A program made the position numbers and the translations under genes. From Glycomyces sambucus (GTDB taxonomy: Bacteria > Actinomycetota > Actinomycetes > Mycobacteriales > Micromonosporaceae), in assembly GCF_900102815.1 (NCBI RefSeq), contig NZ_FNGF01000011.1, positions 1-64,000 of the forward strand: 64,000 nt of DNA. The letters run 5' to 3'. The notes under the pieces were generated by a model, which saw nothing but the letters and a program-made list of their open reading frames with translations, did not search any database and was not told where the DNA came from. Below are positions 17,419 through 24,894 of the stretch, one piece after another (the stretch's first letter is position 1; each line of letters opens with the position of its first letter).

Positions 17419-17448
17419 TTGACACTCCTCGCGGGCACCCGCGAGAAT
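17419..17448 (+). promoter_or_regulatory. Candidate promoter of the cobalamin operon
   Basis: A perfect TTGACA (17419-17424), an 18-bp spacer, and GAGAAT (17443-17448) as a weak -10. It lies immediately before the riboswitch core, where the transcription start is expected. Confidence 0.5.
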
Positions 17449-17596
17449 GGGCGCAAACTGAACAGGCGCCGCGGGGGAAGTCCGGTGAAAGGCCGGCGCT
17501 GACCCGCAACGGTAGTCGCGGTCGTCCCAGGACGACAACCGAGCACCCTTCATTCCCGCCCGGTCCACCCGCGTGAGCCCGAATGCCCGCCGCGCC
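17449..17596 (+). promoter_or_regulatory. Cobalamin (B12) riboswitch
   Basis: The leader holds the conserved B12-box core: GGGGGAAGTCCGGTGAAA at 17473-17490, then CCGGCGCTGACCCGCAAC (17493-17510) and GGTAG. The 3' conserved element GAGCCCGAATGCCCGCCG occurs at about 17575-17592, as expected for closing the aptamer. Downstream, CGCCTGT/ACAGGCG (17610-17631) can form a hairpin before the ribosome site of the first gene, a possible expression platform. Adenosylcobalamin or a related corrinoid is expected to repress the operon. Class assignment is from motif recognition, not a covariance model. Confidence 0.92.
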
Positions 17597-17686
17597 CCCG
17601 ATTTGTCAACGCCTGTCGTGGTCTACAGGCGCTTGCGGCGCCGCCGCCTGCCCGAAGACCCCACTCGCTCAAGGAAAGGTCAGGCA

Positions 17687-19024
17687 ATGCGCCAGCTTGC
17701 CGGCCGTCTGCTCACCGCAGCGGCCCTGCCCGTCACCCTGCTCTCGGTGGCGGTGCCCGCCCACGCCCAGTCCGCCCCGTTCGAACAGCCCGCGGAGGCG
17801 GCCGCCTCGTGGCTGGCCGCCCAGTCCGACGGGACGGCCTGGAACCAGGACCCGGCGACCTCGCTGGACGCGGTCCTGGGGCTCCTCGCCGCCCGTGTCG
17901 GCGGCGACCAGGTCGAGGCGACGCTCCAGTGGCTCAACGACCCGGCGGTCCTCGACCCGTACGTGAACACGGCGGCCGACGGCGCCGCGGGCTTCAACGC
18001 CGGTTCGGCCGGGAAGGTCATGTACACGGTCGCGACCGCGGGCGGGGACCCGACGGACTTCGGCGGGGTCAAGCTCGCCGACGAGGTGGCCGCGGCGCAG
18101 ACCGCGAACGGGACCTACGGCGACGGGACCGCCGGATCGACGGCGTGGGCCGTGCTGGGCCTCTCGCGCACCGACACGCCCGCCGCCGCGACGGCCGCGG
18201 CCGGGCTCGCGGCGGTCCAGTGCCCCGACGGCGGGTTCAACTACGCGGACGTCGACGGCGGGGACGACTGCGTCTCCGACCCGGACACGACCGGCCTGGC
18301 GGTCTCGGCGCTGGTGGCGCTCGGGGAGCCGGGCGCGGCGTCCCTGGAGGCGGCCGTGGCGTGGCTGGAGTCGGCGCAGGCCGAGGACGGCGGGTTCGAC
18401 GGCGGCTTCGGCGCGAACGCGAACTCGACGGCGATGGCGGCGCAGGCGCTGCTCGCGGCGGACCGGTCCGAGGCGGCCGGGCGCGCGGTGGCGTTCCTGC
18501 TGACGCTCCAGTTCGACTGCTCCAGCGACGAGCCGGGCGCGTTCATGTACACCGACCCGGAGGACCCGGACTTCGGCGAGGCGACCCGCCTGCTGGCGAC
18601 CGCCCAGGCGATCGTCCCGGTCTCGGGCCAGAACCTCGCGACGCTCGACGCCTCCGGTGCGGACTCCGAGGTCCCGGCGAACGGCTGCGAGGCCGCGGAC
18701 GCCGGTGACGCCACCACCGCCGCGGCGGACGAGGACGAGTCGGGTTCGTCGTGGCTGCCGTGGGCGATCGTCGCCGCGGTCGTCGTGATCGGCGCCCTGA
18801 TCCTGGTCTTCGCGCTCCGCGCCCGCCGCGGCGGCGACGCTGCGGGCAACGGCGCCGCCGGGTCGGCTCCGGCCGCCGGTGCGAGCACCACCGCTGACGA
18901 GGCCGCCGGTTCGGCTGCGACCGACGAAGTGAAGGACGCGGAGACCGCGGACGAGTCCGGCGCCGAGGGCCCCGCTTCGGGCGAGCCCGAGGCCGACGGC
19001 TCCGACGAGGGCAAGGACAAGTAG
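17687..19024 (+). CDS. Exported, membrane-anchored alpha/alpha-barrel protein (transcobalamin-barrel-like)
   Basis: A 445-aa protein under the cobalamin riboswitch. It has a signal peptide (cleavage near AHA-QS, residue 27), then about 300 residues of helical repeats of the prenyltransferase/squalene-cyclase type with Gly-rich turns (QCPDGGFNYADVDGG near 177; AEDGGFDGGFGANAN near 232). A transmembrane helix at about 353-378 is followed by RARRGG and an about 65-residue Ala/acidic cytoplasmic tail. It lacks the Asp-rich catalytic motif of squalene cyclases as far as I can see. The alpha6/alpha6 barrel of intrinsic factor and transcobalamin belongs to this fold class. Inferred role: surface corrinoid capture for the adjacent ECF transporter. 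AAGGAAAGG precedes the ATG. Confidence 0.8.
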   Translation: MRQLAGRLLTAAALPVTLLSVAVPAHAQSAPFEQPAEAAASWLAAQSDGTAWNQDPATSLDAVLGLLAARVGGDQVEATLQWLNDPAVLDPYVNTAADGAAGFNAGSAGKVMYTVATAGGDPTDFGGVKLADEVAAAQTANGTYGDGTAGSTAWAVLGLSRTDTPAAATAAAGLAAVQCPDGGFNYADVDGGDDCVSDPDTTGLAVSALVALGEPGAASLEAAVAWLESAQAEDGGFDGGFGANANSTAMAAQALLAADRSEAAGRAVAFLLTLQFDCSSDEPGAFMYTDPEDPDFGEATRLLATAQAIVPVSGQNLATLDASGADSEVPANGCEAADAGDATTAAADEDESGSSWLPWAIVAAVVVIGALILVFALRARRGGDAAGNGAAGSAPAAGASTTADEAAGSAATDEVKDAETADESGAEGPASGEPEADGSDEGKDK

Positions 19025-19032
19025 TCCCGCTC

Positions 19033-19989
19033 GTGCCCAGAGACGAACGACACGCAGGCAGCGCCCGCCGATCCGGCGGGCGCTGCCTGCGCGCTGTCGC
19101 ACCCCCGAGCCACCCTTGCTTCCGGGGGCGTCGCGATCGGACACTCCCGACCTCGGGGGGCGGCGCGGCGCTCGCCGGACCGATCGCACCGCCACAAGCA
19201 ATCCGGCTCGATGCGGTCCACGAGCGCACTGCGCCCGCGACCGGCCTCGCGGCGCCGGCGGGTGCCGGGCTCGATCCGGACGCTGTTCGAACCGCAGGTG
19301 CACTGGATCTCGCGCCGCTCGGGGCGACCTGGCGCAGTAGGACGGCCGGGCACGCTTCGACCGGGCTCGATCCGGCGGCGCGACGGAGTACCGCCGGTGT
19401 CCGGTCGGCGGCCCGGCGAGCGGGCGCCGGTCTCGCCGTCGTGCTGCTCCTCCTGCTCGCGGGCCTCGCCGGCCCGGCGTCGTCCGCAACGGCGCAGGAG
19501 CCGTGCGCGGGGGTCACCGTCGTGGTCGACTTCGGCACGCTCGCAACCGATCCGAAGACCGGGTGCGCCGCCGGTCCGGCGGACGGGCTCGATGCGCTCG
19601 CGCAGGCCGGGTTCTCGGTCACCGAGGTCGCCTCCATCCGCGGGATGGTGTGCCGGATCGACGCGCTCCCCGAAACCGACTGCGGCGCTTCACCGCCCGC
19701 CGACGCGTACTGGTCCTACTGGCACGCGAACCCCGGCGACGACGAGTGGACCTACTCGATGGTCGGCGGCGCCGACGCGACTCCCGACCAGGGCGACCTC
19801 GAAGGCTGGGCCTTCGGCGACGGCTCCACGCCGCCCGCTGTCGCGCCCGGCGACGCCGTCGCGTCAGCCGCGCCCGAGACCGAGTCCGAGTCCGAAGGCG
19901 CCGACTGGACCTGGATCGTCGCCGTCGCGGCCCTCGCGATCATCGGCGGGCTCGTGGTGTGGCGGCTCCGACGCGACCGGCGCGCCTGA
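19033..19989 (+). CDS. DUF4430-like (transcobalamin C-terminal-like) anchored exported protein
   Basis: The certain part begins near 19410: basic residues RSAARRAG, a hydrophobic signal (LAVVLLLLLAGLAG), then a small extracellular domain starting at EPCAGVTVVVDFG with Cys pairs and YWSYWHANPGDDEWTYS, a pattern resembling DUF4430, and a C-terminal helix (WIVAVAALAIIGGLVVW) plus RRDRRA. DUF4430-type domains form the beta domain of animal intrinsic factor and transcobalamin. The start is uncertain. The only in-frame starts are GTG at 19033, with no ribosome site and a terminator-like hairpin inside, and GTG at 19441, which removes the basic signal region. Codons before about 19400 are less GC-rich at third positions, so the true start may be non-standard. 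The ecfT-like gene follows at once. Confidence 0.72.
   Translation: MPRDERHAGSARRSGGRCLRAVAPPSHPCFRGRRDRTLPTSGGGAALAGPIAPPQAIRLDAVHERTAPATGLAAPAGAGLDPDAVRTAGALDLAPLGATWRSRTAGHASTGLDPAARRSTAGVRSAARRAGAGLAVVLLLLLAGLAGPASSATAQEPCAGVTVVVDFGTLATDPKTGCAAGPADGLDALAQAGFSVTEVASIRGMVCRIDALPETDCGASPPADAYWSYWHANPGDDEWTYSMVGGADATPDQGDLEGWAFGDGSTPPAVAPGDAVASAAPETESESEGADWTWIVAVAALAIIGGLVVWRLRRDRRA
19053..19091 (+). terminator. 18-bp perfect hairpin between barrel and DUF4430-like genes
   Basis: Arms CGCAGGCAGCGCCCGCCG / CGGCGGGCGCTGCCTGCG with a 3-nt ATC loop, 29 bp after the barrel-gene stop. It may set a lower level of the downstream transporter genes relative to the surface protein. The downstream frame can be read through it only if translation starts at 19033. 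Confidence 0.65.
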
Positions 19990-19991
19990 CC

Positions 19992-21647
19992 GTGCCGACC
20001 GCCGCAGCCGTCCGGCCCATGCGCCGCCGCACCGCCCACCCCGCGGCCTGGTGGGGGTGGGCGCTGCTCCTCGCCACCGCCGCCGGGCGCACGGCGAACC
20101 CGTGGCTGCTGCTCCTCATCGCCGCCGTCGCCGGGCTGGTCGTCGCGTTCTGCCGCGGCGACGAGCCCTGGTCGGGGGCGTACCGCGTGTTCCTCTACAT
20201 CGGACTGAGCGCCGTCGCGGTCCGGATGGCGTTCTACGTGGTCTTCGGCGGGTCGGACGGGCCGACCGTCCTGTTCACGCTCCCTGCGGTGACGCTCCCG
20301 GAGTGGGCCGCCGGGTTCCGGCTCGGCGGGAACGTCACGGCCGAGGGCGCCCTCGCGGCCCTGTACGACGGCCTCCGGCTCGCGACGCTCCTGGTCTGCG
20401 TGGGCGCCGCGAACGCGCTCGCGAGCCCGCGGCGGCTCCTGCGCTCGGTTCCGGCCGCGCTGTACGAGGTGAGCGTCGCGGTCGTCGTCGCATTGTCGGT
20501 GGCGCCGCAGCTCGTGGCCGGCGTCGGCCGGGTGCGGCGCGCGAGGGCCCTGCGCGGCAACACGAGCCGCAGCCCGGCGAACCTCATGCGCACCGTCGTC
20601 GCCCCGGTCCTGCACGACGCGCTTGACCGGTCGCTGCACCTCGCGGCGGCCATGGCGTCGCGCGGCTACGGCCGCGCCGCCGGGGTCCCGGCACCGGCCC
20701 GCCGCGCCACCGGCGCCGCGCTCCTCGTCGGGCTCTTCGGGCTCTGCGCGGGCGCGTACGCGCTGCTGGGCACGACCACGCCCGCGCCGCTCGCGTGGGC
20801 GGTCCTCGCGGCGGGCGCCGCCGCGGCCGTCTTCGGGATCGCGTTCGCCTCCAGGCGGGTCCCGCACACCAGGTACCGGCCGGACCGCTTCGGCCCCAAG
20901 GACTGGGCCGTCGTCGCCTCCGGCGCGGCGGCCGTGATCGGCACCGCCGTCAGCCTCGCGGTCGAGCCCGCCGCGCTGTGGCCCGCCACCGCGCCGCTCC
21001 ACGCACCCCCGCTCCCCCTCGCCGCCGCGGCAGGCGTCCTCATCGCCGCCGCCCCCGCCCTCCTGGTCCCCTCGACACCCGAAGGCATCTCCCGGTCGAA
21101 GGGCGCGCACGCCGCGGAGACCGGCGCACCGGCACCCGGCCGCACGGCGCCGCTTGCCGGTACCAACGGGCGCAATGCGACCGCAGGAGCGACCTCCGCA
21201 GGCCGCGCCGCCACTGTGCAGGACCGCCACGAACGCATTCGTGCCGACAGCGCCAGCGCGGAACCAGACGGTGCCGTACTCGACAGCGCCGCACCAGGCC
21301 CCGCCACCCAAGACCGCGACTCGCATTCAGGCGGCGCCAACGACAACAGCGCGCCACAGGGCGACCCGCATTCCGGTGCCGGCGACGACTCCGCCGCACT
21401 GCACGGCAACCCGCGCGCGGGCACCGCGAGCAACGACATCGCACCGCACGACGACGACCCGCATTCCGGTGCCGGCGACGACTCCGCCGCACTGCACGGC
21501 AACCCGCGCGCGGGCACCGCGAGCAACGACATCGCACCGCACGACGACGACCCGCATTCCAGTGCAGACGACGACACCACCGCACCCGGCGGCAACCCAT
21601 CATCCGATGCGGGCACCGGCACCTCGGCAACGGAAGGCACCCGATGA
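19992..21647 (+). CDS. ECF transporter T component (EcfT/CbiQ family) with repeat tail
   Basis: A 551-aa protein. Residues about 1-360 are a multi-spanning membrane protein of the CbiQ/EcfT family, with the two coupling motifs that contact the ATPases recognisable as RARALRG and AMASRGYGRA. Family members are usually 220-350 aa; here about 190 additional C-terminal residues are hydrophilic and include a 31-residue tandem repeat (starting DPHSGAGDDSAALHGNPRAG). The tail is expected to be disordered. Start: GTG 2 bp after the previous stop; an ATG nine codons on is possible. The stop overlaps the ATPase start (ATGA). Role: transmembrane scaffold of an energy-coupling factor vitamin transporter, by context for cobalamin or a precursor. 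Confidence 0.88.
   Translation: MPTAAAVRPMRRRTAHPAAWWGWALLLATAAGRTANPWLLLLIAAVAGLVVAFCRGDEPWSGAYRVFLYIGLSAVAVRMAFYVVFGGSDGPTVLFTLPAVTLPEWAAGFRLGGNVTAEGALAALYDGLRLATLLVCVGAANALASPRRLLRSVPAALYEVSVAVVVALSVAPQLVAGVGRVRRARALRGNTSRSPANLMRTVVAPVLHDALDRSLHLAAAMASRGYGRAAGVPAPARRATGAALLVGLFGLCAGAYALLGTTTPAPLAWAVLAAGAAAAVFGIAFASRRVPHTRYRPDRFGPKDWAVVASGAAAVIGTAVSLAVEPAALWPATAPLHAPPLPLAAAAGVLIAAAPALLVPSTPEGISRSKGAHAAETGAPAPGRTAPLAGTNGRNATAGATSAGRAATVQDRHERIRADSASAEPDGAVLDSAAPGPATQDRDSHSGGANDNSAPQGDPHSGAGDDSAALHGNPRAGTASNDIAPHDDDPHSGAGDDSAALHGNPRAGTASNDIAPHDDDPHSSADDDTTAPGGNPSSDAGTGTSATEGTR
21363..21575 (+). repeat. 93-bp tandem repeat in the EcfT tail
   Basis: Two essentially identical 93-bp units (21363-21455 and 21456-21548) followed by about 27 bp of a third, diverging copy. 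The unit encodes 31 residues in frame. Identity at synonymous positions implies recent duplication or ongoing homogenisation. Confidence 0.93.
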
Positions 21648-23341
21648 CCGTCGACGCCATCGTGTTCGAGCACGTCACCTTCGCCTACGGGGCGCCGCCT
21701 TCGGGTGCGACCGGCGTCCGCGGCATCGGCGGGCACTCCGCCGACTCGGGCCCGGCCGTCCATCGGCCCGTCCTCGACGACGTGTCGTTCACGCTCCCCG
21801 AGGGCGAGTTCTGCCTGCTCGTGGGCCCCACGGGCGCGGGCAAGTCGACGCTCCTCAAGGCCGTCAACGGGCTCGTCCCCCGCTTCACCGGCGGCGACAT
21901 GCACGGACGCGTCACCGTCGCCGGCCGCGACGTGCGCGGCGCGACCCCCGCCGACCTCGCGGACGTCGTCGGCTACGTCGGCCAGGACCCGCTGGCGGGC
22001 TTCGTGACCGACGAGGTCGAACTCGAACTCGCCTACACCGCCGAGCAGCTCGGGGTCGCCCCCGCGGCGATGCGCAAGCGCGTCACCGAGATCGTCGACC
22101 TCCTCGGCCTCGCCGACGTGCGCGACCGCGCCCTCGCGCAGCTGTCCTCGGGGCAGCGGCAGCGGGTGGCGATCGGCGCGGCGCTCGTCGCCGGGCCGAC
22201 GGCGCTCGTCCTCGACGAACCGACCTCCGCACTCGACCCGACCGCGGCCGACGAGGTCCTCTCGGCGCTGCACCGGCTCGTCCACGACCTCGGGATCACC
22301 GTCCTCCTGGCCGAGCACCGGCTCGAACGCGTCGTCCAATACGCAGACTCTGCCCTCCTCCTCGACGGCGGCCGTTGCACCGCCGGTCCCCTCGGCGAGA
22401 TCCTCGCCCGTTCACCGGTCGCGCCTCCGGTGGTCGGGCTCGGGCGCCTCGCCGGCTGGCCCGGCCCGCCCGTGACGATCCGCGAGGCCCGCCGTCACGC
22501 GGCCCCGCTGCGGAAGATCCTCGCCGAGCGTGCTGGAACCGTAGCTCGGGGTACCGACATCCCGTCCGCGGCGCAGGCCGGGCCGCCTCTGCTGGAGGCA
22601 CGCGGGCTCACCGTCGACTACCCGGGGGTGCGCGCCGTCGCCGGGGTCGACCTGGCCGCCGCCCGGGGCGAGCGCATCGCCCTCATGGGCCGCAACGGCT
22701 CCGGGAAGTCCAGCCTCCTGTGGGCGCTCCAGGGCACCGGGAAGCGCTCGGGCGGGACGGTCGCGATCGGCGGCGCCGACCCGGCCGCGCGGCGCCCCGG
22801 GGAGCGGCGCACCCTCGCCGGGCTCGTCCCCGCCGACGCCGCCGACCTGCTGTACGCCGAGACCGTCGCCGCCGAGTGCGCGGGGGCCGACGAGGACGGC
22901 CGCGCCCCGAAGGGCACGTGCGCGAAGATCCTCGACGACCTCGTGGAGGGCGTCGACCCCGGCGTCCACCCCCGGGACCTCTCCGAAGGGCAGCGGCTCG
23001 CCCTCGCGCTGGCCGTGACCCTCACGGCCGCACCGCCCCTGCTGCTGCTCGACGAGCCGACGCGCGGCCTCGACTACCCCGGGAAGGCCGCGCTCGCCGC
23101 CCGGCTGGGGACACTCGCGGGAGCCGGGCACTGCGTGGTCGTCTCGACGCACGACGTCGAGTTCTGCGCCGAGTTCGCCTCGCGCGTGGTGGTCCTGTCG
23201 GACGGCGAGGTCGTCGCGGACGGCCCGGCCCGGCAGATCACGGCCGCGTCGCCGATGTTCGCGCCGCAGGTGGAGAAGATCCTGCCCGGCTGGATGACCG
23301 TGGCCGAGGTCGAGGCGGCGCTGGAGTCCGGCGATGACTGA
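21644..23341 (+). CDS. ECF transporter ATPase, fused A-A' (double ABC domain)
   Basis: A 565-aa protein with two ABC ATPase domains in one chain. Domain 1: Walker A GPTGAGKST (61-69), signature LSSGQRQRVAIG, Walker B ALVLDEPTSALDP. Domain 2: Walker A GRNGSGKSS, signature LSEGQRLALAL, Walker B LLLLDEPTRGLDYPG, then a His switch VVSTHDVEF. Fused EcfA-EcfA' is typical of actinobacterial ECF systems. It energises import through the T component encoded just upstream. The start overlaps the ecfT-like stop, and the end overlaps the S-component gene by 8 bp, so all three are translationally coupled. Confidence 0.93.
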   Translation: MTVDAIVFEHVTFAYGAPPSGATGVRGIGGHSADSGPAVHRPVLDDVSFTLPEGEFCLLVGPTGAGKSTLLKAVNGLVPRFTGGDMHGRVTVAGRDVRGATPADLADVVGYVGQDPLAGFVTDEVELELAYTAEQLGVAPAAMRKRVTEIVDLLGLADVRDRALAQLSSGQRQRVAIGAALVAGPTALVLDEPTSALDPTAADEVLSALHRLVHDLGITVLLAEHRLERVVQYADSALLLDGGRCTAGPLGEILARSPVAPPVVGLGRLAGWPGPPVTIREARRHAAPLRKILAERAGTVARGTDIPSAAQAGPPLLEARGLTVDYPGVRAVAGVDLAAARGERIALMGRNGSGKSSLLWALQGTGKRSGGTVAIGGADPAARRPGERRTLAGLVPADAADLLYAETVAAECAGADEDGRAPKGTCAKILDDLVEGVDPGVHPRDLSEGQRLALALAVTLTAAPPLLLLDEPTRGLDYPGKAALAARLGTLAGAGHCVVVSTHDVEFCAEFASRVVVLSDGEVVADGPARQITAASPMFAPQVEKILPGWMTVAEVEAALESGDD

Positions 23342-24146
23342 GGCCGGCCCGGAGGGGCCGCCGCTCGCGGCGGCGCGCCCGGCCGTGCGCCGCCGCGCGG
23401 CGGTCGCGCTGGTGCTCGCGGCCGGGTTCGGCCTGGTCGCGATGTCGTGGCCGCTGCTCGCCGCGCCGGGCGGGGCGCTCACCGAGACGACCTCGGGCCC
23501 TTGGCTGTTCGCGCTGCTGCTGCCGCTGGTGACGGCCTCCGTGGTGGTCCAGTTGACCGGCGGGGGCCTGGACGCGCGCGCCGTCGCGATGCTCGGGGTG
23601 CTGTCGGCGGTGGTCGCGGCGGTGCGGCCGTTCGGGGCGGGCGCCGCCGGGGTCGAGACGGTGTTCTTCCTGATCATCCTGGCGGGCAGGGTGTTCGGGG
23701 CCGGGTTCGGGTTCCTCCTGGGCTGCACGGGGCTGTTCGCGTCGGCGCTGCTCACCGGGGGCGTGGGCCCGTGGATGCCGTACCAGATGTTCGCGGCGGC
23801 GTTCGTGGGCCTGGGCGCGGGGCTGCTGCCGCGCACGCCGGACTCGCGCCCGGGCCGGGCCGGCGAGGTCGCGCTGCTCGCCGGGTACGGGGTGGTCGCG
23901 TCGCTCGCCTACGGGCTGTTGATGAACCTGTCGTTCTGGCCGTTCGCGATCACCCAGGGGAGCCTCGCGTACGTGCCCGGCGGGGGCCTGGACGAGAACC
24001 TGCCGCGGCTGTTCGCGTACACGATCGCGACGTCCCTGGGCTGGGACGTCGGCCGCGCCGTGACGACCGCGGTGCTGCTGGTCCTGACGGGCCCGCTGCT
24101 GCTGCGGGTGCTGCGGCGCGCGGCGAGGCGCGCGAACTGGTCCTAG
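23334..24146 (+). CDS. ECF transporter S component, cobalamin-regulated
   Basis: A 270-aa membrane protein with six or more hydrophobic segments (for example AAVALVLAAGFGLVAMSWPL, VFFLIILAGRVFGAGFGFLL, FAAAFVGLGAGLLP). The segment RVFGAGFGFLLGCTGLFASA with GVGPWMPYQMF matches actinobacterial ECF S components. Placement after the T and fused A subunits and below a cobalamin riboswitch points to cobalamin or a corrinoid precursor as substrate. I cannot assign a named S subfamily from sequence alone. It is the last gene of the operon and ends at a convergent hairpin. Confidence 0.87.
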   Translation: MTEAGPEGPPLAAARPAVRRRAAVALVLAAGFGLVAMSWPLLAAPGGALTETTSGPWLFALLLPLVTASVVVQLTGGGLDARAVAMLGVLSAVVAAVRPFGAGAAGVETVFFLIILAGRVFGAGFGFLLGCTGLFASALLTGGVGPWMPYQMFAAAFVGLGAGLLPRTPDSRPGRAGEVALLAGYGVVASLAYGLLMNLSFWPFAITQGSLAYVPGGGLDENLPRLFAYTIATSLGWDVGRAVTTAVLLVLTGPLLLRVLRRAARRANWS

Positions 24147-24192: not shown

Positions 24193-24846
24193 TCACGCGT
24201 TCCTGGCGAGGCGGAAGCCGAGGTCGTCGATGCGGAGTACCGGCATGGTGCGGCGGCGGACGCCGGCCCGGCAGGACCAGTGCTCGTCGAACCAGCCGCC
24301 GCCCTTGATGACCCGGTAGTCCCGGTAGACCTCCGCGTCGTACACGTCGAAGCACCACTCCCAGGCGTTCCCGAGCATGTCGTGCAGGCCCCACGCGTTC
24401 GGTTCCTTCAGCCCCACCTCGTGGGGGCGTTCACCGGAGTTGCCGCGGTACCAGGCGATCGCGTCGAGGTCGCCGTAGCGCGGCCCGTCGGTGCCGGCGC
24501 GGCAGGCGTGCTCCCATTCGGCCTCGGTGGGCAGCCGGTAGCCGTCGGCGCCGCGGTCCGGGGCCACGGCCGCGCTGTCGGTCCCGTCCGCGGCGGCCTC
24601 GTAGACCGGCCGCAGCCCTTCGCGGACCGAGAGCGCGTCGCACCAGCGGACGGCGTCGAGCCATGACACCTCGACCGCGGGCAGGCGCCCGCCCGGGTCC
24701 TCGCGGCCGAGGACGTCGGCGTAGAGCGCGCGCGTGACCTGCGTGGCGGCCATGAGGAACGGCGCGACCTCGACGGTCCAGGCCCGCTCGGTGCGCCGGT
24801 CGCGGAGGGTCGCGGTCCCGGCCGGGACGGGCCGCATCGGTGGCAT
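24193..24846 (-). CDS. Formylglycine-generating-enzyme-like (SUMF1 domain) protein, probably non-catalytic
   Basis: A 217-aa FGE-sulfatase (SUMF1) domain. The fold markers are clear: FLMAATQVTRALYADV, PAVEVSWLDAVRWCDAL, YRLPTEAEWEHACRAG, NAWGLHDMLGNAWEWC and DLGFRLARNA. True FGE uses two active-site cysteines in a GGS(x)CHxxxCxRYR-type segment. Here the segment is GGGWFDEHWSCRAGVRRR, so the first Cys position is not Cys. The protein therefore likely belongs to the broad group using this fold for binding or other oxidations. Start chosen at ATG 24846; a GTG two codons earlier is possible. No sulfatase gene is nearby. Confidence 0.82.
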   Translation of the reverse strand: MPPMRPVPAGTATLRDRRTERAWTVEVAPFLMAATQVTRALYADVLGREDPGGRLPAVEVSWLDAVRWCDALSVREGLRPVYEAAADGTDSAAVAPDRGADGYRLPTEAEWEHACRAGTDGPRYGDLDAIAWYRGNSGERPHEVGLKEPNAWGLHDMLGNAWEWCFDVYDAEVYRDYRVIKGGGWFDEHWSCRAGVRRRTMPVLRIDDLGFRLARNA

Positions 24847-24894
24847 CACCACCGCATTTTAGGAACCGCGGCATCCGTGAACCCATCCCGCGCT

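Follow-up and report, generated by a model that had tools for sequence, protein, structure and literature searches.

A cobalamin riboswitch-linked operon of Glycomyces sambucus encoding a candidate two-chain, transcobalamin-like surface system beside an ECF transporter

What role might two exported proteins play that are encoded between a cobalamin riboswitch and the genes of an energy-coupling factor (ECF) transporter? This question is raised by a locus of the soil actinobacterium Glycomyces sambucus, located in a 64,000-nucleotide stretch of contig NZ_FNGF01000011.1 (hereafter the window) from a genome of 5.6 Mb, in which the riboswitch, two genes that we call A and B, and the genes for EcfT, a double EcfA and an S component follow each other in this order on the plus strand, the last of them ending at position 24146. 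The locus is probably a B12-repressed corrinoid uptake operon, whose A and B products act as a transcobalamin-like surface clamp that feeds the ECF importer. Its features are as follows:

17431-17568, plus strand: cobalamin riboswitch aptamer (RF00174, 25.4 bits; E 2.7e-4 when scanned locally, 3.9e-4 genome-wide)
17687-19024, plus strand: gene A, predicted exported, membrane-anchored alpha/alpha-toroid protein (fold matches, signal-like N-terminus, transmembrane-like segment)
19053-19091, plus strand: hairpin between A and B with a perfect stem of 18 bp (fold z-score -5.43)
19441-19989, plus strand: gene B, predicted exported, membrane-anchored beta-grasp protein, with the domain at 19492-19851; start uncertain
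19992-21647, plus strand: EcfT of the CbiQ family, its C-terminal tail hydrophilic and repetitive (PF02361, 31.1 bits against a cut-off of 25)
21644-23341, plus strand: EcfA-EcfA', a single chain with two ABC ATPase domains (PF00005, ABC_tran, two stretches)
23334-24146, plus strand: S component, proposed to be corrinoid-specific (PF12822, ECF_trnsprt, 24.4 bits, under the cut-off of 30.7)

At low levels of intracellular cobalamin, the riboswitch would permit expression of the operon, and A and B would be exported and kept anchored in the membrane. There, the alpha/alpha barrel of A and the beta-grasp lid provided by B would shut on a corrinoid outside the membrane and pass it to the dedicated S component, with the EcfT/EcfAA' module supplying the ATP drive. 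A corrinoid ligand is suggested by the regulation of the locus and the content of the genome, and a complex of A and B by gene fusions, predicted folds and gene order; for the hand-over to the S component, it is gene order that we draw on.

The link to cobalamin starts with the riboswitch, which the original prediction had placed at the head of the operon and which our searches recovered. Its score in the window lies under the Rfam gathering score for RF00174 (25.4 versus 31.5 bits), so that a scan of the whole window at gathering thresholds reported none. The corresponding place is filled in 21 of the 22 genomes of the genus, the exception (G006) being a contig that starts just before B, and part of the orthologous sites exceed the gathering threshold, such as those of G004 (37.1 bits) and G008 (36.6 bits). 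On a broader scale, 83 B-bearing genomes were examined, and in 70 of them (34 among the 37 relatives and 36 among the 46 genomes of the phylum set) B is preceded, at a distance of up to 4 kb, by an RF00174 match on its own strand; this count leaves out 15 further B-bearing genomes of the phylum sample. The genomes without such a match are three whose contig starts or ends at B (G006, G419 and G392), four with a single-chain type of ECF transporter (G282, G400, G325 and G068), three of the Streptomyces-type genus g42 (G251, G083 and G165), and G033, G049 and G379. In G192, G224 and G341, A is found apart from B, 206-265 bp behind an RF00174 match of its own; toroid genes placed in this way, separate from B and each behind its own cobalamin riboswitch, are those of loci L225, L226 and L227. 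One further locus (L063; G024:C1:671500-684500) contains four RF00174 matches within 13 kb, distributed over both strands.

The gene arrangement recurs well beyond the window. Of 61 relatives searched, 37 have B, among them every one of the 22 genomes of the genus (that of the window counted), and a B profile found it in 63 of the 396 genomes of the phylum sample. Within the genus, the order A-B-EcfT-EcfA-S is repeated, with the locus of G006 starting just before B and that of G019 stopping inside EcfT. Among 40 fetched phylum loci, A is present in 28; of the 12 without it, two break off at B. A set of named loci (the best 80 of 284) was retrieved via conserved B peptides and is therefore biased to closer relatives, the nearest of which, making up the top 13 of the 80 rows, belong to Glycomyces; in this set, 77 loci have A and B near each other on one strand, 71 have EcfT and 60 have all five genes. 

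In several loci, the two genes are physically joined. Five phylum loci (L073, L076, L080, L086 and L099) encode A and B in a single reading frame, with the domains in the order known from transcobalamin, and four of them adjoin an EcfT-EcfA-S set, L086 being the exception. The fused chains carry CWB2 cell-wall repeats in three cases and SLH domains in one, and that of L099 ends with a segment resembling a membrane anchor. A scan flagged fusions in seven of the 80 named loci (L154, L155, L158, L174, L175, L184 and L186), with B lying ahead of A in L186. Circular permutation, for which 161 fetched loci were scanned, was found in both A and B of L106 and L107, in B alone in L108, and in A alone in L081, L083 and L084; in these forms, the part corresponding to the C-terminal region of the profile precedes that corresponding to the N-terminal region, the break falling near position 110 of the A profile and position 70 of the B profile. 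The cut-offs of the NCBIfam families SCO2321/SCO2322, from whose names we derive the label Streptomyces-type, are exceeded by A of L106 and by B of L106, L107 and L108. The transporter can be fused as well: a 1018-residue frame in L090 (3608-6661, minus strand) comprises EcfT, EcfA-EcfA' and S, as do its counterparts in L091, L092 and L093; the B protein beside it resembles a lipoprotein in two of these loci, L090 and L092.

These arrangements bear on the alternative that survives best, namely that the ECF transporter imports corrinoids alone and that A and B each bind corrinoids on their own, to scavenge or store them, without forming a joint clamp. ECF-CbrT provides a precedent, importing cobalamin without surface proteins as far as the available part of its description goes (PMC5997447). 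Moreover, some genomes have B, the transporter and the riboswitch with A located elsewhere (G192, G224 and G341) or with no A found (G120), and in L072 A is located after the S gene. Separate binding is disfavored by A-B fusions in transcobalamin order and by the closeness of A to B in nearly all of the best 80 of the 284 named loci, and we consider it rather unlikely.

A joint clamp is also consistent with the predicted structure of B. Modelled singly (pLDDT, the predicted local distance difference test score, 86.7; 26 sequences), B matched the beta domains of transcobalamin, haptocorrin and intrinsic factor with Z scores of 8.8-9.6 and 3u7z, a bacterial protein that carries a putative metal-binding annotation, with a Z score of 9.5, the next row scoring 6.0. 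Foldseek placed the same carrier chains first. B is predicted to fold like the beta domain of transcobalamin and intrinsic factor. The original prediction had described B as DUF4430-like, which holds as a relationship and fails as a match to the Pfam model: DUF4430 (PF14478) matched neither the B protein of the window nor any other protein of its genome, and it detected two of 44 B-family members (best E 0.0019). When the profile of these 44 proteins was aligned by hhalign to 20 DUF4430 proteins of the same phylum (remaining from 23 loci tried after L195, L207 and L214 had been dropped for a stop inside the cut frame), a probability of 95.1% was obtained over 94 columns, compared with at most 0.2% for reversed, five shuffled and toroid controls. 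In addition, six of 15 fetched DUF4430 loci (L235-L240) carry EcfT, EcfA and S together with a toroid gene. The profile alignment and the shared type of cluster thus identify B as a divergent relative of DUF4430 in a like gene cluster.

Both proteins show signs of export and anchoring, as the original prediction had claimed. A has a signal-like N-terminus and a transmembrane-like segment (residues 359-377), and B contains a hydrophobic, export-like segment and a transmembrane-like segment near its C-terminus. In relatives, crude tests on frames that include some species twice and come from overlapping named loci and genome sets detected a hydrophobic stretch ahead of the domain in 163 of 178 A and 192 of 208 B frames, a transmembrane-like stretch after it in 115 and 135 of them, respectively, and an LPXTG-like motif after A in 33 of the 178.

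The identity of the ligand is addressed by the genome as a whole. Two RF00174 matches are present in it, one at the A-B-ECF operon and the other ahead of metE (L070:5143-7627, minus strand, contig C14), whose product is the B12-independent methionine synthase. A search of the genome for the corrin-synthesis marker CbiC returned none over the cut-off, and three matches to B12-binding domains were found; the host seems unable to make the corrin ring. With CbiC missing, metE behind a B12 riboswitch and one further riboswitch-linked gene set, this set most likely serves uptake. Among the relatives, CbiC exceeds the cut-off in 15 of the 24 that lack B versus 9 of the 37 that carry it, a comparison that is not independent, as 22 of the 37 represent one genus, and that counts the sub-cut-off match of G016 as without CbiC.

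The full ECF transporter described in the original prediction was borne out: EcfT, two ATPases and an S component make up a complete set, and this set recurs in the genus and phylum loci. The best NCBIfam rows for EcfA are ECF ATPase models, all under their cut-offs, and the S gene keeps the same operon place across relatives, its score under the PF12822 cut-off notwithstanding. Comparison of the S component with PDB sequences, alone and as a profile, gave no match. The hydrophilic tail of EcfT includes a tandem repeat of 93 bp in 2.4 copies with 96% matches (21362-21585).

It could be argued from these features that a different substrate linked to this riboswitch is taken up (cobalt, a precursor of the lower ligand or a fragment of a corrin, for instance) and not complete corrinoids: EcfT falls into the CbiQ (cobalt) family, nothing characterised in the PDB is closely related to the S component, and cobalamin riboswitches also precede cobalt transporters, as described for C. 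difficile (PMC11477304, in the part available). Yet a genome without CbiC would have little use for cobalt in corrin synthesis, and the beta domain has a predicted transcobalamin fold, so that we give this explanation little credence and retain the uptake of complete corrinoids as the preferred one.

The structure predicted for A is less specific. Its model, an alpha/alpha barrel (pLDDT 89.8, 15 sequences) that was likewise predicted for the single protein, aligns with intrinsic factor (3kq4) with a Z score of 21.0 over 240 residues at 2.9 Å. Terpene cyclases fit the A model better (Z 24.7), glycosidases also score, and at the sequence level the A profile leads to squalene-hopene cyclase (E 1.7e-32). 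Because cyclases outscore intrinsic factor, the modelled barrel appears compatible with a B12 binder and not diagnostic of one. The notion of two transcobalamin halves draws its support from the predicted beta fold of B, the compatible barrel of A, the fusions and the riboswitch linkage; taken by itself, the barrel does not distinguish a B12 binder. Pfam Cobalamin_bind (PF01122) returned no row for A of the window and weak matches for 7 of 29 A-family proteins (best E 1.9e-4).

Class II terpene cyclases are marked by a DxDD motif. In the 29 A proteins, the residue aligned to its fourth position is T, A, S or Y and never Asp, and unaligned DxDD strings are present in four of them. A terpene cyclase function for A was dropped on the basis of this motif and the genomic context, even though cyclases are the best structural match. 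That A is an exported terpene-cyclase or glycosidase-type enzyme and B an unrelated adhesin-like surface protein, as the top-ranking fold and sequence hits of A and the glycosidase scores would allow, is highly improbable given the missing Asp, the riboswitch linkage and the A-B fusions.

Several observations nonetheless weigh against a corrinoid clamp formed by A and B. In addition to the better fit of A to terpene cyclases, the best Foldseek E value for B is just 0.012, and the profile of 44 B proteins searched against PDB sequences did not retrieve any transcobalamin chain, yielding seven matches at chance level (E 0.37-0.84), which fell on unrelated chains of toxin subunits and antibodies; the link between B and transcobalamin therefore rests on fold and on DUF4430. 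The start of B is ambiguous, with in-frame GTG codons at 19033 and 19441 ahead of the stop at 19989, and the region where the n-region of a signal sequence is expected contains no ATG, GTG or TTG. In the four genomes with B and a single-chain ECF transporter, A was not found and RF00174 had no match anywhere in the genome; the ligand of B may differ in these organisms. The three genomes of genus g42 have a B match with no adjoining RF00174 match, and CbiC is found over the cut-off in the nine B-bearing relatives counted above. Finally, the hairpin between A and B could stop transcription ahead of B in the window strain.

Stems of at least 12 bp are present between A and B in 13 of the 21 genus loci measured, the window included. 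Candidate identities for the hairpin are a terminator, an attenuator or an element resembling repetitive extragenic palindromic (REP) sequences, and it could make B and the transporter less strongly expressed than A. In one relative (L048), the ATG of B is placed at the end of A, which joins the two genes directly. Downstream, a gene on the minus strand (24193-24852) converges on the operon; it has sub-cut-off matches to EgtB- and GldK-type families, which we take to be formylglycine-generating-enzyme-like.

How does the proposed clamp compare with known systems? In transcobalamin, one B12 molecule is sandwiched by the toroid and the beta domain, and the general idea of a bacterial counterpart is already in print: in the portion available to us, Burroughs et al. 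(2007) propose B12 scavenging for exported SLBB (DUF4430) and toroid proteins associated with CbiO/CbiQ genes, covering low-GC Gram-positives, planctomycetes and euryarchaea and noting that the proteins are often fused (PMC1796856). The system of the window shares with these the exported beta-grasp and toroid domains and the ECF-type genes; unlike them, as far as that portion describes them, it belongs to an actinobacterial branch that is mostly split, lies beyond the Pfam DUF4430 model and is in places circularly permuted. A literature search on SCO2321/SCO2322, DUF4430 and transcobalamin-like proteins with ECF transporters found no description of this actinobacterial system, a weak negative, with subscription papers mostly outside its coverage.

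The families SCO2321 (NF053823) and SCO2322 (NF040672), whose names carry no function, occupy the same operon position. They differ from the window proteins in that B of the window reaches 33.5 bits where the cut-off is 85, A has no NF053823 match, and the domains of the Streptomyces-type proteins are circular permutations of those in the window. ECF-CbrT of Lactobacillus delbrueckii is likewise an ECF importer for cobalamin, but its ECF module is shared with other S components and the available part of the report describes no surface proteins (PMC5997447). BtuG and BtuH of Bacteroides also capture B12 at the surface, but are set apart by their description, in the parts available, as Gram-negative surface lipoproteins (PMC6143338, PMC8941943). 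What our analysis adds is an actinobacterial branch that is divergent, for the most part split and related to the SCO2321/SCO2322 families, the finding that both halves are circularly permuted in Streptomyces-type loci, a counted riboswitch linkage and a functional proposal for SCO2321/SCO2322-type families. If correct, this proposal would assign these families a function and explain how scarce corrinoids are concentrated at the Gram-positive surface in front of an ECF importer.

The animal carriers transcobalamin, intrinsic factor and haptocorrin combine an alpha/alpha barrel with a beta-grasp domain of the same predicted fold, in an order that matches the natural bacterial A-B fusions. In contrast to them, the window encodes two separate anchored chains, and the B profile has no sequence match to the carriers; moreover, the animal proteins are endocytosed with their receptors (PMC2667541, in the part available), whereas the window provides an adjacent ECF importer. 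It is tempting to speculate, albeit with somewhat more doubt than belief, that actinobacteria possess a two-chain, surface-anchored transcobalamin that docks on a dedicated ECF importer and tolerates splitting, fusion and, in both halves of the Streptomyces-type, permutation, the fused animal carriers being one variant of a wider and older bacterial design. Split, fused and permuted bacterial relatives of this kind would then be at hand for testing how the animal B12 carriers work and where they came from.

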